Positions 609 to 8,815 of a stretch of DNA of 64,000 nucleotides are shown piece by piece; the stretch's first letter is position 1, and the number at the start of each line of letters is the position of its first letter. Below the pieces are notes generated by a model. The model was not told the DNA's origin. It saw only the letters and a list, made by a program, of their open reading frames with translations, and made no database searches. Origin of the DNA: a bacterium (GTDB lineage: Bacteria > Sysuimicrobiota > Sysuimicrobiia > Sysuimicrobiales > Segetimicrobiaceae); assembly GCA_035295165.1 (NCBI GenBank), contig DATGJN010000091.1, forward strand, positions 1 through 64,000, in the 5' to 3' direction. Made by a program: the position numbers and the translations under genes.

Positions 609-624
609 TGTGACGCACCTCACA
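609..624. promoter_or_regulatory. CRP-type box TGTGA-CGCACC-TCACA
   Basis: This is a perfect match to the CRP half-site pair TGTGA-N6-TCACA. It lies in non-coding DNA between the minus-strand racemase-like gene and the small plus-strand gene at 714. The right half continues as TCACAGTC, shared with the boxes at 5907 and 6061. A weak -10 (GATAAG, 672-677) would put the box centre about 65-68 bp upstream of a transcription start, close to class I activator geometry. The cognate regulator is probably the CRP encoded at 7311. Confidence 0.7.
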
Positions 625-713
625 GTCCGGCTATGCGCGCGCTCATCGCGCGCACGTGGGCGCGCGGCGAAGATAAGGCCAACAGGCCGGAAGGCTGCCG
701 TGGGAGGTGCACG

Positions 714-926
714 ATGGCATGGTACCGATGTCCGTGTGGGTTTCTCACCGAGCAGTCCCCGCAGCATGGGGACGTGGTCGTGTCCGTGTATCATCTGCAC
801 CCGGCCGCGAGGGTGGACGGCGGCTCGGCGGTCGTGCGGATGGCGCCGCTTCCCGATCCGATCCGAGGGTGCGGCGAGCGCGCTTCCGACGCCGAGCTGC
901 TTACGGCGGCTCGAGCGCTTCGATGA
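714..926 (+). CDS. small Cys-rich protein of unknown function (MAWYRCPCG)
   Basis: This is a 70-residue protein starting at an ATG preceded by GGGAGGTG at ideal spacing. It begins MAWYRCPCGFLTE, so a CxC pair sits near the N-terminus, followed by a segment with SVYHLH and a PLPDP stretch. There is no signal peptide or membrane segment. The CxCG element suggests metal or redox binding, but I do not recognise a characterised family. A perfect CRP-type box lies about 100 bp upstream, so the gene is probably controlled by cAMP-CRP. The 3' end overlaps the convergent gene ending at 901 by 26 bp. Start, box and composition support a real gene; the function is unknown. Confidence 0.6.
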   Translation: MAWYRCPCGFLTEQSPQHGDVVVSVYHLHPAARVDGGSAVVRMAPLPDPIRGCGERASDAELLTAARALR

Positions 927-1239
927 GCGAGGCGGGGACCGCTTTCGGCGGCGCCGAGGCCAGCAGCGTCCTCTCGAACGACCTGCCGGGGTCCCGCCGC
1001 GATTCGGCCTGACCGGCGGTCCGGAGCGTGACGGCGCCGCCGTACGCGAGCCACTCGCGCAGATCGGGGCTCTTGAGTAGACACCCCCGGTAGCCGAGGG
1101 GCGGCGCCGCCGGCGGCGGACCCGGATACGCTGCCGATCGATCCCAGGCCCGCTCCAGGCTGCGGACGATGCTCGGCGGTACCGCCCACGTGGGATCCGG
1201 TCGTCCGGAAAACAAGAGAATCGTCCCCGTCCAGGTCAC
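901..1239 (-). CDS. FSGR-P domain protein, stand-alone copy
   Basis: This 112-residue protein starts at GTG, 7 bp after the stop of the upstream 301-residue gene, so the two form an operon. It opens with ILLFSGRPDPTW and has PPLGYRGCLL about 45 residues later, then a GG...RxAxQxE...FE tail. The same order (VFSGRSNP, LGYRGLVI, HGD...RAEDEQFE) occurs in the N-terminal third of the neighbouring protein, so the two are paralogous domains. There is no signal peptide, membrane helix or recognised catalytic motif. A partner or modulatory role for the cysteine-hydrolase neighbour is an inference from operon structure. I know of no assigned function. Confidence 0.6.
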   Translation of the reverse strand: MTWTGTILLFSGRPDPTWAVPPSIVRSLERAWDRSAAYPGPPPAAPPLGYRGCLLKSPDLREWLAYGGAVTLRTAGQAESRRDPGRSFERTLLASAPPKAVPASLIEALEPP

Positions 1240-1246
1240 GCGCGCG

Positions 1247-2152
1247 TCATCGGATCTTGATGTGGCCGTGCATCACCGTCATGAACGTACAGAAGTTCAC
1301 GTACGGCCCGCGATTCGCCAGCCGCGGGTCCGGGATCGTCGCCCCGCTGTTGTCGACGTTCGTCACCGGGGTGCCGCCGGGTTTGTGCGACCAGTATCCA
1401 TTTCGGCCCTTTCGGTACCAGTGGAAGTCCCAGCCGGGCGCGATCACGAGCGCGACCAGGTGCCCCTCGTCGGGGCACCGGTTGTTCGCGCCCGGGCTGT
1501 CGATGAGCGCATCGGCGATCGCCGCCGGCCTGACCGCTGCGCAGGAGAGCGCCGCATACATCGCGCCTGCCGCCAGCCCCGGCTGCGCAAACGTGTCCGT
1601 TCGGTAGTTCGTAGCGTAATTGTAACAGTTGTTGAAGGGTTGCCGCTGCGGGACGTTCCACCAGTGCGGCTCGTAGAGGGGCGCGCAGGCGCACCGGTGC
1701 CTCTTCGGCCAGACCGAGGCCCGGTGTCGCCGCTTCGCAAAGTCTGCCCGGAGGTTGCGGAAGCGTGCGACCTCACGCTCGAGCCTTCGCGAAAACTCGG
1801 GCCCGTACCCGAGCCGGCGAACGAGACCGGACATGCCGAGGGCGAACGTCTCGAACTGCTCGTCCTCCGCGCGATGCGCGAGCCTCGGCGCGAGCAGATC
1901 CCCGTGAACCAGGCGGAACGTCCTGGGAAGCCTCTTGTCCGGTGCGGCGACCTGCTCGATCACGAGACCCCGGTATCCCAGCGTCGGCCACGGCGGCAGC
2001 ACGGCCTCGCCCCTCGCGAGCGGGCGCACCGGGATCAGCCGCTCCGCGGCTTCACGGGCTTCGCTTCCCTCGAGTTCGATCACGGGGTTTGACCGCCCGC
2101 TGAACACGTCGACCGTTATGCGCAGCTTGATGGCTGTCCACCTCCTTGTCAT
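1247..2152 (-). CDS. FSGR-P domain fused to putative papain/NlpC-like cysteine hydrolase
   Basis: This is a two-part cytosolic protein. Residues about 8-110 form the FSGR-P domain (VDVFSGRSNP, LGYRGLVIE). Residues about 165-300 carry NNCYNYATN, GHLVALVIAPGWDFHWYR and WSHKPG...VTNVDNSG. A Cys in an Asn-rich turn followed by His-containing strands resembles papain/NlpC-fold hydrolases; this is inference from pattern, and the substrate is unknown. The ATG at 2152 lies upstream of the ribosome binding site. AAGGAGGTGG (2147-2138) is followed by ATC at 2131, giving (M)KLRITVDVFSGR, which may be the true start. Two CRP-type boxes and a TACACT -10 lie immediately upstream. It is co-transcribed with the FSGR-P gene at 1239-901. 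Confidence 0.65.
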   Translation of the reverse strand: MTRRWTAIKLRITVDVFSGRSNPVIELEGSEAREAAERLIPVRPLARGEAVLPPWPTLGYRGLVIEQVAAPDKRLPRTFRLVHGDLLAPRLAHRAEDEQFETFALGMSGLVRRLGYGPEFSRRLEREVARFRNLRADFAKRRHRASVWPKRHRCACAPLYEPHWWNVPQRQPFNNCYNYATNYRTDTFAQPGLAAGAMYAALSCAAVRPAAIADALIDSPGANNRCPDEGHLVALVIAPGWDFHWYRKGRNGYWSHKPGGTPVTNVDNSGATIPDPRLANRGPYVNFCTFMTVMHGHIKIR

Positions 2153-2190
2153 TCGCGCTCACAGTGTACATCCGGCGAGTCGGTGGCGGC

Positions 2191-2206
2191 TGTGACCGCG
2201 GTCACC
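2191..2206. promoter_or_regulatory. CRP-type box TGTGA-CCGCGG-TCACC (one mismatch)
   Basis: It contains the perfect 14-bp palindrome GTGACCGCGGTCAC and differs from TGTGA-N6-TCACA at the last base only. Its centre is about 42 bp upstream of the predicted minus-strand transcription start near 2156, the class II CRP position that overlaps the -35 region. Confidence 0.6.
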
Positions 2207-2213
2207 TGAGATC

Positions 2214-2229
2214 AGTGAACTTCATCACA
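2214..2229. promoter_or_regulatory. CRP-type box AGTGA-ACTTCA-TCACA (one mismatch)
   Basis: It lies 23 bp (centre to centre) from the 2191 box, about two helical turns. It would be centred near -65 of the FSGR operon promoter, a class I position. The first base differs from consensus. Confidence 0.55.
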
Positions 2230-2488
2230 CGTGGACCCTCTACGCCACGGATAGACTCCGGATTCTGCTCCGCCCGGAATGAATCGGACCTCTCCGTCCG
2301 CTGACTTTTCCTTGCCGGTCATGTCGATTTGGAGTCTGTCCACTCGACAATGCAGTGAGAGAAGGATCGATCCGGTGGCGGAGTTCGCCCGGTCGTGACC
2401 GGTCCGCTAGCGCCTGGTCGGCCCGACACGAAAAGGCAAACGACGACGCAGGCACAGAGAAGAACGTTCAAAGGGAGGGTACTCAATC

Positions 2489-2887
2489 ATGAGGGACGTG
2501 CTCTGGACCGTTCAAGGGCTCCTCGCGCTCCTGTTTCTGTTCACCAGCGGGATCAAGTTGGTGATGCCCCTCGATGCGCTGACGCAGCAGATGCCACTGC
2601 CGGGCCTGTTCGTACGGTTCATCGGGGTGGCCGAGGTACTCGGCGCGCTCGGTCTGATTCTTCCGGGTCTGCTGCGCATCCGTACGAGCCTGACACCGTT
2701 AGCCGCTGCTGGGCTGGTGATGGTCATGCTGGGTGCGACGGTGTTCACACTGGCCTCGGGCGGCGGGCCGTTGGTCTTGATCCCGCTGGCAGTGGGTCTC
2801 CTCGCGGCGTTCGTCGCCTACGGCCGCTGGCGACTGGTGCCGCACGCCGAGAGCGGCCGCACTCGCGTTGAACCTGCGAGGGCGTGA
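2489..2887 (+). CDS. DoxX-like integral membrane protein
   Basis: This 132-residue protein has four predicted membrane helices. It starts at an ATG with AAAGGGAGGG upstream. The first helix, LFLFTSGIKLVMP, is followed by FIGVAEVLGALGLILPG, the hallmark of the DoxX/DUF4345-like small membrane family, then two more helices and a short basic cytosolic tail. Family members are linked to redox or quinone-associated processes, but most are uncharacterised. A second DoxX-like gene follows about 140 bp downstream, suggesting a tandem pair. The function is not defined beyond family membership. Confidence 0.8.
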   Translation: MRDVLWTVQGLLALLFLFTSGIKLVMPLDALTQQMPLPGLFVRFIGVAEVLGALGLILPGLLRIRTSLTPLAAAGLVMVMLGATVFTLASGGGPLVLIPLAVGLLAAFVAYGRWRLVPHAESGRTRVEPARA

Positions 2888-3024
2888 TCGGTCCAAAAGG
2901 GGGGCGGCGGACAAACATGCGTGAGAGCGGGCGGGGTCCCACGCTCCGGTTGTTGAGACGACGGCAATGCGTGCGGCGTGTGTGGTGCGGACACACGAGA
3001 ACAAACTAGGGCGGGTGATATCGT

Positions 3025-3432
3025 ATGCAACTAGGCACTCAAACCGCTTCGGGCTCGAAGAGCAGGCTCTGGACCGGACGTATCGTCAGCACGGTGGCTG
3101 TACTGTTCCTGCTGCTCGACGGCGCTCTGCATGTGATGATGCCGGCGCAAGTGGTCCAGGCATTCGCGCGGCTCGGGTATCCTGTGAGCCTCGCTCCGAC
3201 CTTAGGAATTCTCGAGATCGTGTGCGTGGTCGTCTATGTGTTTCCGCGCACGTCGATCCTCGGCGCCATCTTGCTGACGGGCTATCTTGGCGGCGCGACC
3301 GCTACCCAGGTGCGCGTTGGCAGTCCACTCTTTGCCGAAGCTCTCTTCCCTGTCTATATCGGCGTGCTAATCTGGGGAGGGCTTTGCTTGCGAGAAGACC
3401 AGCTGCGCGTGCTCATTCCTCTGCGGCGCTAG
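3025..3432 (+). CDS. DoxX-like integral membrane protein (second copy)
   Basis: This 135-residue protein has four membrane helices and starts at an ATG preceded by AGGGCGGGTG. It shows the DoxX pattern: first helix LLLDGALHVMMPAQVVQ, then LGILEIVCVVVYVFPR, a GGATATQVR turn between helices 3 and 4, and LREDQLRVLIPLRR at the C-terminus. It is in tandem with the gene at 2489 but clearly diverged from it. A membrane location is certain from sequence. The biochemical role is not known for this branch. Confidence 0.8.
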   Translation: MQLGTQTASGSKSRLWTGRIVSTVAVLFLLLDGALHVMMPAQVVQAFARLGYPVSLAPTLGILEIVCVVVYVFPRTSILGAILLTGYLGGATATQVRVGSPLFAEALFPVYIGVLIWGGLCLREDQLRVLIPLRR

Positions 3433-3586
3433 GCTATGGCTCACATGGTGCGCTCAGGGTTGTTGTGTACGCAAGGCGTTTCGCGGCCGTGGCCCCGCGG
3501 CCGCGATCGATGCTGGGCTCTCCCTCCGCGGTGATGGGCGGGATGCCCCGGGTGGACGCCTCGCGTCTGGGTAAAGCGCCTGCGGC

Positions 3587-4303
3587 CTATTCGTAGAACT
3601 CAGGCGCCTTCTTGAGCTTCTTCCACTCATCCGGGTCGTGTCCGTAGACGATGAGTGCGACCCGCTCGCGCGCGGCCAGGTCCACGAGCTTTCGAGTGCT
3701 CGCCCTGGTTCCCGCTGCTTCCAGGTCGTAGGATCCGATCGGCCGGGTTTCCGGGGTGTGATCTCCCAGCGCGCGGGCCATCGCATCGATCGCCAGGAGC
3801 ACGGGGCCGGTCTTGGGGAGGCGTACCAGCACGGACTGGTGTCCCGGCACGTGCCCGCTCGTCTCGATCAACTCGACCCCGGGGACCAACGTCGTGTCCC
3901 CGTCGACGAGGCGATAGCGCAGACGAGGATCGCCCCACTGCTCGCGCGTGCCGGCGAAGCGCGGGTGCCCGCCCTGCGCCGTGTCGTAGTGGCGTCGCTG
4001 CACGACGATCTCCGCGGCGGTAAACGGTGCGAGATAACCCGCGTGATCTCCATCGAAGTGCGTGGCGACGAGGTAACGGATGTTCTCCGGGCGGACGCCC
4101 AGGCGCGCGAGTTGATTGACGACGAGGTCGTCCTCGGTGACGCGGGGACCTTGGTGGTCGGGCCGACGGCTCGTCTCGACCATCTTAGGGCCAAAGCCGG
4201 TATCCACGAGGATGTTCGTCCCGTCATCGGTCTGGATCAGGTAGCCCGGATAGGGATTGCCGGTGTCCGGATTCATCCCGAGTTGCATGATGTACAGGCG
4301 CAT
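3587..4303 (-). CDS. metallo-beta-lactamase fold hydrolase, N-acyl-homoserine-lactonase-like
   Basis: This 238-residue protein has the MBL fold: NILVDTGFG, then the metal motif ATHFDGDHAG, ETSGHVPGHQSVLVR, and ALIVYGHDPDEW at the C-terminus. The central motif is HxDxDH instead of HxHxDH, a variant common in proteins annotated as AHL-lactonase-like, so lactone hydrolysis is possible but unproven. It has no signal peptide and is presumably cytosolic. An ATG seven codons upstream exists, but GGGGGAACAC sits directly before the ATG at 4303, which I use. It is divergent from the acetamidase gene at 4601. Confidence 0.82.
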   Translation of the reverse strand: MRLYIMQLGMNPDTGNPYPGYLIQTDDGTNILVDTGFGPKMVETSRRPDHQGPRVTEDDLVVNQLARLGVRPENIRYLVATHFDGDHAGYLAPFTAAEIVVQRRHYDTAQGGHPRFAGTREQWGDPRLRYRLVDGDTTLVPGVELIETSGHVPGHQSVLVRLPKTGPVLLAIDAMARALGDHTPETRPIGSYDLEAAGTRASTRKLVDLAARERVALIVYGHDPDEWKKLKKAPEFYE

Positions 4304-4600
4304 GTGTTCCCCCGTTCCTATCAAAGTGGCGTGATGGAGTGGTTAGCCCGCGGTGCCGCGTTGTCCTGTTGGCCCGGACCCGCGGTGCGCATCCACGTTC
4401 CAGCCACCGCCGCGACAACGCGCGAGCGCCGAACGTCCGACTGTGGCGCCTGAGTGGGGAGGTGCTTGTGCCGCTACTACGAACAGTGCGGACGTGGCCG
4501 GCACCCCGCGGCGCTGTTCGTAGTTTGGCACACACGCCTGCGTATTAGGCAGACGCGGCTCGGCGCTGCACAGAACGGGCCACGTCGGAGGGGCGTGGGC

Positions 4601-5518
4601 ATGACAGAGATCATCGCGATCGCGACACCGCACGGGCAGTTTGCCTACTCGCCGACCGCACCGCCGTGTGCAACGATCCTCCCCGGTGTAACCGTGCGCG
4701 TGGCGACGCGCGACCCACGATCGGGCGCTCTCATCGTCGGACCGCCGGGGACGTTTCAGCCGTATCCCCCACCGCCCGGAGGTCGCACGAACGCCCTCAC
4801 CGGGCCGATCCGCATCGAGGGTGCCGAGCCCGGCGACGTGCTCGCGGTCGACGTGCGTGACATTGCGCTCCGGCCTCCCGGATACATGGCCGCGAGCGAC
4901 GCCGGGTTGGTCGTGCCCAGGGGCCGTGTGGGTGAGTCGCTCATCGGCGTTGTGGACGTCCAGGACGGGCACGTGGTGTGGCGCGAGGGTCTCCGGATTC
5001 CGTGTCGCCCGATGGTGGGGGAGATCGGCGTGGCCGATCCCTCGGAACCGCGTTCCGGCGCCGTCGGCCGCTTCGGGGGGAACATGGACCACGCGGTGCT
5101 CGGCGCGGGATGCCGCGTCTATCTGCCGGTGTTCGTGCCGGGCGCGTTGCTTTACATCGGCGACGTACACGCGGCGATGGGTGACGGCGAATTGAGCGGC
5201 GGCGGCGTGGAGATCGCGGCGGAAGTCACGTGCACGATCGGTCTGGTCCGGCACCGATCGCTGCTGGCCCCGCGCATGGAGACGGCCGACCGCGTAATCA
5301 CCGTGGGGTGGGGCCGCGACTTCGCCGTGGCCCGCGGCATGGTGGTAGAGGACATGCTGAGGATTCTCGAGACCCGCCTCGGGATGCGGGCCGTGGAGGC
5401 GCTGATGTGGATCTCGGCCGCCGGCGACCTGCGCGTCGGGCAGGCGTGCGGCTCCATGGACATGACACTCAGGCTGCAGATGCCGAAACGGTGGCCCCAG
5501 TTGACGGCCGCGCCGTGA
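4601..5518 (+). CDS. acetamidase/formamidase family protein
   Basis: This 305-residue protein of the FmdA/AmdA family hydrolyses small amides to ammonia and the acid. The family pattern is visible: NALTGPIRIEGAEPGDVLAVD near residue 65-85, the FGGNMDH active-site block around 160, GDVHAAMGDGELSGGGVE around 190, and CGSMDMTLRLQMP near the C-terminus. The length is typical of the family. The start at 4601 follows GGAGGGG at good spacing; the frame is open further upstream without conserved sequence. It would supply ammonium, in keeping with the amidases elsewhere in the window. Confidence 0.85.
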   Translation: MTEIIAIATPHGQFAYSPTAPPCATILPGVTVRVATRDPRSGALIVGPPGTFQPYPPPPGGRTNALTGPIRIEGAEPGDVLAVDVRDIALRPPGYMAASDAGLVVPRGRVGESLIGVVDVQDGHVVWREGLRIPCRPMVGEIGVADPSEPRSGAVGRFGGNMDHAVLGAGCRVYLPVFVPGALLYIGDVHAAMGDGELSGGGVEIAAEVTCTIGLVRHRSLLAPRMETADRVITVGWGRDFAVARGMVVEDMLRILETRLGMRAVEALMWISAAGDLRVGQACGSMDMTLRLQMPKRWPQLTAAP

Positions 5519-5563
5519 TTCGGACGACGGTGTTCTGCGTCGTCGTGTTGGCGACGTAACGGT

Positions 5564-5809
5564 CTAGTCTAGCGCGCCGGCGGCGCGCGATTCGATCCCG
5601 TCGCCGTCAGCGTCCCATCTATTCTCTCCGAACGGCACCGGCACGGGTGCTCGCAGGAACTCATCACGCTCATGCCAGCGCTTCCAGAAGGTGTTCGTTT
5701 CCTTAGGTTCATCCGCTCGAGCCGCAGCGGTCGCCGCCAGGATGAGGCACCAGAGGAGGACGCCGAGCACCATGGAGGGTTCCAGTCCCGGTGGAAGCGC
5801 CGTTGGCAT
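5564..5809 (-). CDS. small single-pass membrane or secreted protein, unknown
   Basis: This 81-residue protein has a strong hydrophobic segment (MVLGVLLWCLILAATAAARA, residues about 13-32) ending in a possible signal-peptidase site (ARADEP). A polar tail rich in Trp, Asp and Arg follows (WKRWHERDEF, DADGDG). The ATG at 5809 is chosen because GAGGTG lies six bases upstream; a GTG at 5818 is too close to it. A perfect CRP-type box (5907-5922) lies about 105 bp upstream, with a weak TAGACT -10 at the class I distance. No family recognised. Confidence 0.5.
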   Translation of the reverse strand: MPTALPPGLEPSMVLGVLLWCLILAATAAARADEPKETNTFWKRWHERDEFLRAPVPVPFGENRWDADGDGIESRAAGALD

Positions 5810-5906
5810 TGCATTCACCTCAATGTTTGGCCATCGCCGTACCGTGTCGCAGGGTCAGTCTACGGCCCGACCGTTGACCGCGCAGCGAGCGGCGTTACTC
5901 GCGAGG

Positions 5907-5922
5907 TGTGAACGGGGTCACA
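5907..5922. promoter_or_regulatory. CRP-type box TGTGA-ACGGGG-TCACA
   Basis: This is a perfect TGTGA-N6-TCACA match, extended to TCACAGTC. Its centre is about 65 bp from a minus-strand start predicted by a weak -10 (TAGACT, 5862-5857), pointing to the small gene at 5809. It is about 154 bp from the next box. Confidence 0.7.
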
Positions 5923-6060
5923 GTCCACACTTTGATGCCTGCTGACCGGCCGCACGACCACGGATGTCGAGCCACCCCGCACCCCGACGGTCCCGGTCTG
6001 GGCTCGTCCGTCTGGTCCGGGGCGGTGTCGCCCTCAATGCCTCGTGGGCGGTGCGTTCGC

Positions 6061-6076
6061 TGTGAAACACTTCACA
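6061..6076. promoter_or_regulatory. CRP-type box TGTGA-AACACT-TCACA
   Basis: This is a perfect TGTGA-N6-TCACA match, again followed by GTC. Its centre (6068.5) lies about 62-65 bp upstream of the start predicted from the promoter at 6098-6126, the class I activation position, so CRP would activate the sigma-factor gene. Confidence 0.72.
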
Positions 6077-6097
6077 GTCAGTTCGTGATGCGGTCCA

Positions 6098-6126
6098 TTG
6101 TTCGAAAAATCGATCGGGCATATCGT
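6098..6126 (+). promoter_or_regulatory. sigma70-type promoter for the sigma-factor gene
   Basis: -35 TTGTTC (6098-6103), a 17-bp spacer that is unusually A-rich for this genome, and -10 TATCGT (6121-6126). Predicted transcription start is near 6130-6133, giving a leader of about 120 nt before the ATG at 6253. Confidence 0.5.
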
Positions 6127-6252
6127 AAGGCCACGAGCTCATCGACGAATACGCACCGCGAACGAGGATCGATGCTCGGACGGTCTCGCAAGCGCGCGTG
6201 AGGGTGAGCTCAAGGCTGCCGCTCGGGTTCGGACGGCCAGGGAGGGTCGGGG

Positions 6253-7149
6253 ATGATCCAACCACAGACACACGAGGCGCGGTCGCTGACAGCGGAGGTT
6301 GCGGTAGTGCGGGGTGGACACGGTGGCGGCGATCTTGTTCGGATGTATCTCGACGAAATCGGACGGGTGCCGCTGCTCAGTCCGGCAGACGAGGTGGAAC
6401 TGGCCAAACGGGTGGAACGCGGCGACGCGGAGGCCAGGCGGCACCTCGTGGAAGCGAACCTCCGGCTCGTCGTCAGCCTTGCCCGGAGGTACGCCGGATC
6501 CGACGTCCCGCTGTCGGATCTCATCCAGGAAGGCAACCTCGGGCTCATGCAGGCGGTCGACCGGTTCGACTGGCGGCGCGGCTACCGGTTCGCGACATAC
6601 GCCACATGGTGGATCCGTCAGGCGCTGATGCGGGCCCGCGGCGACCAGTCGCGCCAGATTCGCATCCCCGTCTACATGGCGCTCGAGGTCAACAAGCTGT
6701 CGCGGCTCCAGCAGCGCATGGCGCAGGAACTGGGACGGGAACCGAGCCTGGACGAGATCGAGCAGGTCATGGACAAGCCGGTCGAGCCGGTGTGGAAGGT
6801 GCAGCAGATCGCCCGCGCGCCGATCTCGCTGGAAACGCCGATCGAGGACGAGGGGGAGGGCTCCCTCGGCGACCTGATCGAGGACGCCACCGCGCCCGAT
6901 CCGATGGAAACGGCGTTCGCCTCGGTGCTCAAGGCGCACCTCGCGGACCTCCTGGACGCGCTCCCGCCCCGGCAGCGCAAGGTGCTCGTCGTGCGGTTCG
7001 GCCTGGACGACAACCAACCGCGCACGCTCGAGGAGGTCGCGAAGGCGTTCGGTGTGACGCGGGAGCGGGCACGGCAGTTGGAGCTGAAGGCGTTGAGCAA
7101 GCTGCGGCGCCTAAGCGAGAAGCGGTCCCTGAGAGACTTCACGTCATGA
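6253..7149 (+). CDS. SigA/RpoD-like RNA polymerase sigma factor
   Basis: This 298-residue sigma70 protein starts at an ATG after CAGGGAGGG. Region 1.2 (VRMYLDEIGRVPLLSPADE), region 2 with the core-binding and -10 elements (DLIQEGNLGLMQAVDRFDW, RFATYATWWIRQAL), region 3 (IPVYMALEVNKLSRLQ, GREPSLDEIEQVMD) and region 4 (LPPRQRKVLVVRFGL, FGVTRERARQLELKALSKLRR) are all present. It lacks the long acidic N-terminus of a housekeeping RpoD, so it is either the short primary sigma of this lineage or a group 2 paralogue. It is preceded by a CRP-controlled promoter and followed by the crp-type gene, consistent with a linked regulatory role. Confidence 0.9.
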   Translation: MIQPQTHEARSLTAEVAVVRGGHGGGDLVRMYLDEIGRVPLLSPADEVELAKRVERGDAEARRHLVEANLRLVVSLARRYAGSDVPLSDLIQEGNLGLMQAVDRFDWRRGYRFATYATWWIRQALMRARGDQSRQIRIPVYMALEVNKLSRLQQRMAQELGREPSLDEIEQVMDKPVEPVWKVQQIARAPISLETPIEDEGEGSLGDLIEDATAPDPMETAFASVLKAHLADLLDALPPRQRKVLVVRFGLDDNQPRTLEEVAKAFGVTRERARQLELKALSKLRRLSEKRSLRDFTS

Positions 7150-7310
7150 CCCGGCCCGCCGGGCCGCCAGGGCGGCCCGGTGCGGCCGCGACGGAGGTAC
7201 GGACCGGCGTCCGTCGAAAGGTGGGCCGCGTGTGTGTGCCGTCCCGCGACTGCGACGGGCAGCGGCGCACAGACGCGACCCCCGCAGATGCGGACCGAGG
7301 AGGTGCCACG

Positions 7311-7988
7311 TTGAGTCGAGACCTGCTCGCACAGGTCCCTCTCCTGGCGCAGCTCGGCCCGACGGCGATGGACGACGTCGCGGCCCTCATGCGGCGGCAC
7401 CGCTACGCCGCGGGCGACGTGGTCTTCCACCAGGGCGATCCCGGAACCGCACTCTACATCGTCGAGGAGGGCGAGGTCAAGATCGTCCTCGGCTCATCGG
7501 ACGGCAAGGAGGTCATCCTCCGGCTGCTCGGCCGCGGGGACTTCCTCGGGGAGCTTGCGCTCCTGGACGGCGAACCTCGGTCGGCCGAGGCCGTGGCGAC
7601 GCTCCCGACCACGTTGCTCATTCTGCCACGCGAGGCGTTTGTGGCGTTTGTGACCGAGCATCCGCAGGCCGCGCTCGTGCTCCTCACGACGCTCAGCCGG
7701 CGCCTGCGGGGCGCGGACAATCGCATGCACGACGCGGTGTTCCTCGACGTGCGCACCCGGCTGGTCAAAGTCCTCGTCGACCTGGCCGAGACCCGGGGCC
7801 AGCCCGACCCCCGGGGCGTCCTGATCGCGTCCCGGCTCACGCAGGGCGATCTCGCCGGCATGGTCGGGGCGACGCGGGAGAGCGTCAACAAGTGGCTGCG
7901 CTACTACGTCGAACGAGGGTTGATCCTCCACGAACGCCAGCGCCTGACCGTGGTGGATCTCAAGCGGTTGCGCGCCGAGTTGTCCTGA
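7311..7988 (+). CDS. cAMP-binding CRP/FNR-family transcriptional regulator
   Basis: This 225-residue protein starts at TTG with GAGGAGGTG upstream. Residues 1-130 form the cyclic-nucleotide domain (HQGDPGTALYIVEEGEV). Its phosphate-binding cassette GELALLDGEPRSA (residues 80-92) keeps the Gly-Glu and Arg-Ser (R90, S91) that hold cAMP in E. coli CRP. A C-terminal winged helix includes the recognition helix ATRESVNKWLRYY, where R189 and E190 match CRP Arg180/Glu181 and Lys194 stands for Arg185. That predicts recognition of TGTGA, and five such boxes occur in the 6.7 kb upstream. It lacks the Cys cluster of FNR. It is probably the regulator of this local circuit. Confidence 0.9.
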   Translation: MSRDLLAQVPLLAQLGPTAMDDVAALMRRHRYAAGDVVFHQGDPGTALYIVEEGEVKIVLGSSDGKEVILRLLGRGDFLGELALLDGEPRSAEAVATLPTTLLILPREAFVAFVTEHPQAALVLLTTLSRRLRGADNRMHDAVFLDVRTRLVKVLVDLAETRGQPDPRGVLIASRLTQGDLAGMVGATRESVNKWLRYYVERGLILHERQRLTVVDLKRLRAELS

Positions 7989-8035
7989 CCTCCCGCGGGG
8001 TTGGGCCGCACCGATCTGCCGAGGAGGCCGCGCGC

Positions 8036-8815
8036 GTGGGCGACCGGAAGCAGAACTACTACGGATGGGTCCGCGATCTCCCCGACCGGCGGGACTACGA
8101 GTACGCGCCGCCCCCGGCGCTCGCGCGGACGCGTCCGCGCCGCGTCGATCTTCGCCCGCAATGTCCTCCCGTGTACGATCAGGGGCAACTGCAGAGCTGT
8201 ACGGCCAACGCGGTCGGCGCGGCGATTCAGTACATGCGGAGGATGGAGAACCTCGCGCCGGACTTCCGGCCGTCGCGGATGTTCATCTACTTCAATACGC
8301 GCGCCGCGCGCGGGTGCGAGCGGTGCGACACCGGCTCGCCGATCCGCGACGCCGTCAAGTCCGTCGCGGCGCTCGGGGTGTGCCCGGAAGAGCTGTGGCC
8401 GTATCGGGTGCCGCGGTTCGAAACGAAGCCCGCACCCGGGTGCTTCCGCGCGGCGAAGCGACATCGCGCGATCAGCTATCATCGGGTGCCGCGGGACCCG
8501 GACCTGACCGCGATCCGGACGTGTCTCGCCTCGGGGCACCCGGTCGTCTTCGGAATGGCCGTCTACAAGAGCTTCGAAGCCGCGGCGGTGGCGCGAAGCG
8601 GCGTGGCCGTGTTGCCGCAGCGCGGGGAGCAGCACATCGGCCACGGACACGCCGTCCTGGCCGTCGGCTACGACGACGGCGCGCGCCGGCTCCTTGCCCG
8701 GAACTCGTGGGGCGAAGGGTGGGGGCAGCGCGGCTACTTTACCCTTCCGTACGCCTACCTCGCCGACCCGCATCTCAGCGACGATTTCTGGACAATTCGG
8801 GCCGTCACGCGATGA
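8036..8815 (+). CDS. papain-like (C1 family) cysteine peptidase, cytoplasmic
   Basis: This 259-residue protein starts at GTG after GAGGAGG, 48 bp downstream of the crp gene. Catalytic elements of C1 peptidases are present in order: QGQLQSCTANA with Cys55, GHGHAVLAVGYD with His205, and RNSWGEGWGQRGYF with Asn223. The oxyanion Gln is in DQGQ. The N-terminus (DLPDRRDYEY) resembles the short lead seen in bacterial C1 peptidases. There is no signal peptide and no inhibitory prodomain, so it should be cytosolic and active as made. The role is unknown. Its place directly after the regulator suggests co-expression. Confidence 0.85.
   Translation: MGDRKQNYYGWVRDLPDRRDYEYAPPPALARTRPRRVDLRPQCPPVYDQGQLQSCTANAVGAAIQYMRRMENLAPDFRPSRMFIYFNTRAARGCERCDTGSPIRDAVKSVAALGVCPEELWPYRVPRFETKPAPGCFRAAKRHRAISYHRVPRDPDLTAIRTCLASGHPVVFGMAVYKSFEAAAVARSGVAVLPQRGEQHIGHGHAVLAVGYDDGARRLLARNSWGEGWGQRGYFTLPYAYLADPHLSDDFWTIRAVTR

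Follow-up and report, generated by a model that had tools for sequence, protein, structure and literature searches.

Near the start of the window, the 64,000-nucleotide stretch of DNA analyzed here, two genes lie 7 bp apart and run in the same direction on the minus strand. The original prediction described them as a two-gene operon whose products share one small domain, referred to below as FSGR. The genes are indeed real, adjacent, and co-directional, they form a unit that recurs elsewhere, and the second gene encodes the FSGR domain alone. The mapped features are as follows.

901..1239, minus strand: gene 2 (P0002), stand-alone FSGR protein, 112 aa, GTG start
1247..2152, minus strand: gene 1 (P0001), 301 aa, ATG start; FSGR domain, linker helix, and NCYxYA core
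1838..2131, minus strand: N-type FSGR domain of gene 1, residues 8-105
2084..2107, minus strand: VFSGRSNP motif of gene 1, residues 16-23
1967..1981, minus strand: LGYRG motif of gene 1, residues 58-62
1250..1705, minus strand: probable papain-like core domain of gene 1, residues 150-301
1625..1627, minus strand: codon of Cys176 (NNCYNY), proposed nucleophile, first residue of helix 176-181 (AlphaFold2 model and alignment)
1421..1423, minus strand: codon of His244 (DFHWYR), invariant (16/16) in alignment A7, strand 242-248
1385..1387, minus strand: codon of His256 (WSHKPG), proposed third residue, strand 254-256; Gln in the Vibrio/L036 type
2191..2206: CRP-type palindrome TGTGACCGCGGTCACC, 39 bp upstream of the gene 1 start codon, one mismatch
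2214..2229: CRP-type palindrome AGTGAACTTCATCACA, 62 bp upstream of the gene 1 start codon, one mismatch

Every motif listed in the original prediction is present: VFSGRSNP and LFSGRPDP, two copies of LGYRG, HGD and YGG, and QFE and SFE, with NNCYNYATN, DFHWYR, and WSHKPG confined to the gene 1 product. Neither protein matched any model in Pfam, NCBIfam, PHROGs, or PADLOC or gave a meaningful sequence match in the PDB, and a single E 0.52 match from database sequence searches of both was rejected as chance. No paper was found that contains the motif WSHKPG or FSGRPNP or that deals with DUF7689, and the remark that no function had been described for these proteins agrees with the absence of both families from the profile libraries and literature searched. 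The genes checked around the pair encode DoxX-like, metallo-beta-lactamase, acetamidase, and sigma factor proteins. The DoxX-like membrane proteins are two in tandem (2489-2887 and 3025-3432, plus strand), the first of them transcribed away from gene 1 on the other side of the CRP-type sites.

The two FSGR domains are homologous

A plain BLASTP comparison of P0001 with P0002 returned no match and missed a homology that profile methods recover. An HMM search for the domain had been suggested as a check; when a profile of the stand-alone proteins only was run against the open reading frames of the fetched loci, every full-length fused protein gave a match in its N-terminal domain (E 2e-5 to 5e-13). 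Likewise, hhalign paired the stand-alone and fused FSGR families over 97 columns with a probability of 98.7% (E 2.5e-16). By these profile comparisons the two FSGR domains are homologous, and the shared small domain is thus confirmed in both products. AlphaFold2 models of P0001 and P0002, built from separate, non-overlapping alignments, have the same order of elements (strand-strand-helix, four strands, helix), with one short strand more in the P0001 domain (residues 9-105) than in P0002, whose model has a pLDDT of 89.6. Of the structural analysis that had been proposed, the modeling thus yielded a common FSGR element order in both proteins, while the fold search found no significant counterpart: all PDB matches to the P0002 model were insignificant (best E 0.32). 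Across an alignment of 22 FSGR domains, SG..P, the two glycines of LGYRG (G..G), and one Glu are invariant.

In a tree of FSGR domains, the N-terminal domains of the paired enzymes and that of a Streptomyces protein (L015) form one clade of 10 rows with support of 99/95. The stand-alone side of the tree, which has long branches and poor resolution, also includes the FSGR domains from solo fused proteins of a Rhizobium plasmid (L014) and of Bacteroidota (L032). Because these two domains group with the stand-alone type, that type is used either in trans or fused to the enzyme in cis.

The core of gene 1 is probably papain-like

Alignment of 16 very divergent core sequences (A7) revealed as invariants Asn-Cys-Tyr-x-Tyr, a Pro, Asp-x-His-x-x-Arg, Trp-Ser-(His/Gln)-Lys, and a later Pro and Tyr, the nucleophile position holding Cys in 15 of the 16 rows and Ser in one. 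The His244 position is His in all 16, so that the Cys and candidate His whose conservation had been put forward for checking are retained across bacteria, an archaeon, and phages; the His/Gln position follows 12 residues after the invariant His. Ser replaces Cys in one lineage, comprising L038 and L039. The motif reads NSYAY or NSYVY, with His kept, at L050 (177-2744) and L051 (4805-6274), where either Ser serves as the nucleophile or the protein is inactive.

What defines a papain-like fold is a Cys that begins a helix, with strand 2 bearing a His and strand 3 a polar group; in NlpC/P60 proteins the third residue is His (PMC10318531). The AlphaFold2 model of P0001 (pTM 0.49) places a helix at residues 176-181 and strands at 231-238, 242-248, and 254-256, so that Cys176 is predicted to open the helix, His244 to lie on strand 2, and His256 on strand 3, much as the claim of a papain/NlpC-type Cys-His layout had anticipated. 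A Foldseek search of this model against the PDB gave no significant match (best E 0.67). By manual count, about 35 of the best 50 matches, each insignificant, were papain-superfamily chains, among them the Josephin and USP deubiquitinases, the PCAT1 peptidase domain, and the NlpC/P60 proteins Spr/MepS, LytE, and RipD. In the triad of Spr, the two His lie 12 residues apart, as do His244 and His256 in P0001. The papain-like fold is supported by this residue layout together with the list of fold matches, from which we conclude that the core is probably papain-like and outside every named family tested.

The core resembles NlpC/P60 and other papain-like amidases in having Cys at the helix start, His on strand 2, and His as third residue (PMC10318531), but differs in its own motif (NNCYNY/DxHWYR/WSHKxG) and in having no Pfam match or significant fold score; neither P0001 nor the members of alignment A3 matched the NlpC/P60 profile (PF00877). 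Gene 1 also had no Peptidase_C1 match. The window does contain a true papain-family protease (Peptidase_C1, E 3.8e-14), encoded at 8063-8812 on the plus strand directly 3' of a Crp/Fnr gene. DUF7689 (PF24738) was rejected as parent family: it shares the suggestive pattern NC.A - P - H - W.SK.G, but the kinship falls below significance. Full-length L017 scored 15.5 bits against a curated cutoff of 22.6 bits, the phage core gave E 6e-4 to 0.03 and the core alone E 5.8e-4 in 1 of 12 members, the reverse search gave E 0.005 in a small set, and hhalign gave a probability of 2.4%.

Enzyme and stand-alone FSGR genes are paired across phyla

An enzyme gene directly followed by a stand-alone FSGR gene was found at 15 loci, this one and 14 others, from several phyla, with gaps of -23 to +135 bp, mostly within 10 bp. 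A scan of genome contigs recovered full-length relatives in a Nitrospirae MAG (66% identity), Chromatiales (59%), Lysobacter (57%, with a 4-bp ATGA overlap between the two genes), and two Chitinophagaceae (43 and 41%), as well as a myxobacterial or deltaproteobacterial relative cut by a contig end; in all six, the next gene encodes a stand-alone FSGR protein. The same layout was found at L033, L034, and L037 in a search of sampled genomes. At L041, L042, L043, L035, and L040/L052, which represent Nitrospirota and one remote lineage, the core protein has no FSGR domain and yet an FSGR gene comes next. Given the same gene order at 14 other loci, the arrangement is not due to chance, and its recurrence at 15 loci of several phyla implies that selection keeps the pair together. 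The idea of a conserved enzyme-plus-domain pair is thereby upheld.

The family is rare, occurring in 2/395, 5/369, 5/345, and 4/198 genomes of four sampled groups, counts that include the seed genomes. It is missing from the only two further genomes of this genus that were compared and from all the others among 60 relatives. Weak matches in those relatives (L003 to L005) and a second match in the own genome (L002) proved to be unrelated proteins or reading frames. The 66% identity to a protein from another phylum, together with this absence from close relatives, points to acquisition of the pair by horizontal transfer. The own genome has only these two FSGR copies, and neither there nor among 198 genomes of one phylum was a stand-alone FSGR gene found without the enzyme; the sole genome matched among the 198 already carried the pair, its fused copy at a contig end. 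One apparent enzyme without an FSGR domain (L011) was rejected because the half it lacks was located at a different contig end (L065). Frame-broken copies also occur, one of a fused protein in the viral-contig record IMGVR_UViG_3300047320_000196 (L057, 7170-8076, minus strand) and one of the Methanoperedens core (L013, 5771-6201).

Export signals, where present, involve both partners. Four enzymes of the Nitrospirota-type loci and L052 (L041, L042, L043, and L052) have a lipobox or hydrophobic N terminus, and in all five such loci (L035 included) the FSGR partner has a signal-peptide-like N terminus; in pairs of the window type, neither protein has an export signal, and no signal peptide was seen in P0001. 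By these signals the partners share a compartment, which fits direct contact between them.

CRP-type sites are a local feature

Sites of the form TGTGA-N6-TCACA with no more than one mismatch occur six times within the window's first 6.2 kb and nowhere in its other 58 kb, compared with 0.09 sites expected from shuffled sequence. The cluster spans 609-6076 and includes three perfect sites (609, 5907, and 6061). A Crp/Fnr-family regulator (7317-7988, plus strand; cNMP_binding E 1.6e-28, HTH_Crp_2) is encoded about 5 kb from the pair, downstream of a sigma-70 factor gene (6253-7149). Together, the six sites look like a small local Crp/Fnr regulon. No sigma-70 consensus promoter was seen. Control of the pair by cAMP-CRP had been claimed, and the two one-mismatch sites upstream of gene 1 and the nearby regulator gene are in keeping with it; however, no CRP-type site was found within 300 bp upstream in any of eight relatives (8/8). 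Any such control would thus be local, and from the sites CRP control of the pair is plausible in this genome only.

The core recurs in effectors and phages, and possibly in viruses of eukaryotes

The core is also found at the end of effector proteins. In an Rhs protein (L058, 1-1790, minus strand), it is the C-terminal domain after the RHS-associated core (TIGR03696, E 3.9e-19), and in Methanoperedens (L012) it is the C-terminal domain after eCIS_core (E 4.2e-32), a layout described for eCIS toxins, in which an N-terminal eCIS_core/DUF4157 precedes a C-terminal toxin domain (PMC8213781). The Methanoperedens locus has three consecutive open reading frames (5113-8767) with eCIS_core-like N termini and differing C-terminal domains; the first, on which the Pfam match was made, ends in this core, and the other two were judged by their similar N-terminal start. 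In L050 the core, with Ser for Cys, belongs to a DUF4123-PAAR-effector cassette. Judged from its position in these proteins, the core is a recurrent C-terminal domain of effectors or toxins, a point absent from the original prediction. P0001 has the same C-terminal core as the eCIS, Rhs, and DUF4123-PAAR effectors but differs from them in carrying an FSGR domain where the delivery domain would sit.

Three large phage contigs encode the core as a stand-alone protein, and in an Anaeroplasmataceae phage it is joined to a trypsin-like region, with a holin gene close by. The core-only proteins of phages and plasmids have no adjoining FSGR protein. On a Vibrio plasmid (L016, 2478-6558), the core, with Gln at the His256 position, lies in a run of genes that includes those for a C45 peptidase and for a protein with an asparaginase domain, a setting that suggests an amide or peptide pathway. 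The P0001 fold also matched three predicted viral structures at E 1.9e-10, 2.5e-7, and 4e-5 (BFVD entries F2Y2U4, M1HB16, and A0A1V0SF80). One belongs to a giant virus, Hokovirus, and on these model comparisons the core may extend to eukaryotic viruses. The Rhs, eCIS, DUF4123-PAAR, and phage versions suggest an activity worth delivering or restraining.

A pro-domain and its detachable copy

We propose, with a probability of roughly 0.4, that gene 1 encodes a papain/NlpC-like hydrolase with an FSGR pro-domain and gene 2 a trans-acting copy of that domain that restrains or folds the enzyme. Gene 1 would be a cysteine hydrolase, either a peptidase or an amidase, with Cys176 and His244 as predicted catalytic residues and His256 as the third; here activity, substrate, and inhibition are all inferred. 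Its N-terminal FSGR domain would act as a pro-domain that aids folding, covers the active site, or both. Gene 2, translated directly after gene 1, would yield an FSGR copy that attaches to the enzyme and, inside the producing cell, maintains it in an inactive or correctly folded state up to its use or release. The pair's travel across phyla and the presence of the enzyme domain at the end of injection-type toxins make it most likely that the small protein serves the enzyme as a detachable brake or as a partner.

The kind of arrangement is already known, namely a protease with an adjacent inhibitor that resembles its own N-domain. The closest analogue is SpeB-Spi (C10 streptopain), in which SpeB is inhibited by a propeptide analogue encoded next to it; there, as here, a small gene comes directly after a cysteine-protease-like gene, and its product is homologous to the N-domain of the enzyme (PMC2873492). 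The present pair differs in that FSGR and core match no solved chain by sequence, in that it comes in cytoplasmic and exported forms, and in that FSGR is a putative inhibitor. Staphopain and staphostatin (C47) share the enzyme-then-partner order and the co-localized partner, but staphostatins are lipocalin-like and, unlike the FSGR partner, are not propeptide analogues (PMC2873492). What is new lies in the protein families, undescribed in the libraries and literature searched, and not in the kind of arrangement.

The pro-domain reading is favored by the 15 paired loci, the failure to find stand-alone FSGR genes without the enzyme in the genomes searched, co-export, use in cis and in trans, and the residue layout. 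Against it stand the insignificant fold matches (best E 0.67), the pTM of 0.49, the Ser for Cys in L038 and L039, and the core-only proteins of phages and plasmids that have no neighboring FSGR gene, while the Nitrospirota enzymes without an N-type FSGR domain imply that a pro-domain in cis is not always needed. The main rival, which we consider somewhat unlikely, is that FSGR is a targeting or substrate-binding module for cell wall, glycan, or protein and its stand-alone copy a second subunit or a competitor for the ligand. Use in cis and in trans would fit targeting too, the invariant SG..P, LGY.G, and Glu could form a ligand site, and in exported pairs both proteins lie outside the cytoplasm. 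Binding modules, however, roam among architectures, unlike FSGR, for which no stand-alone copy was found without the enzyme in the own genome or among 198 genomes of one phylum, and none of the PDB fold matches to P0002 is significant.

We hold it to be unlikely that the pair consists of an interbacterial toxin of the Rhs/eCIS/DUF4123-PAAR effector family and its immunity protein. The C-terminal position of the core in L058 and L012 and its place in the L050 cassette speak for such a pair, as do the enzyme-then-partner order, the patchy distribution, and the absence from two genomes of the same genus, but P0001 has no delivery domain or secretion signal (a profile search found no N-terminal delivery domain, and there are no secretion-system neighbors among the window genes checked), and it would be unusual for an immunity protein to be a homologue of one of its toxin's own domains. 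Moreover, the L058 Rhs version is overlapped by the gene that follows it, placed where an immunity gene would be expected, whose 128-aa product looks exported and is unrelated to FSGR; if this product is an immunity protein, the target is probably periplasmic. It is more improbable still that gene 1 encodes no enzyme and that, as in papain-like proteins without activity, its NCY/H/W-HK motif marks a fold with a structural or binding role. The Ser for Cys in L038 and L039 and the lack of a significant PDB fold match would agree with this, but Cys in 15/16 and His in 16/16 of such divergent sequences argue against it.

This analysis defines two domains for which no database model exists, a predicted catalytic core and FSGR. 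The core is reused by eCIS, Rhs, and DUF4123-PAAR effectors, by phages, and probably by large DNA viruses; FSGR has no clear structural match and goes with the core in cis or in trans. We tentatively suggest, at less than even odds, that these proteins represent an unclassified papain-like superfamily of bacteria, archaea, phages, and large eukaryotic DNA viruses, serving both as a conflict effector and, inside the producing cell, as an enzyme regulated by a hitherto undescribed FSGR inhibitor fold in cis and in trans. Because co-export is stable in distant lineages, the interaction between enzyme and FSGR can be tested directly, and if FSGR is a natural inhibitor, it would provide a handle to assay and switch off a whole effector family.
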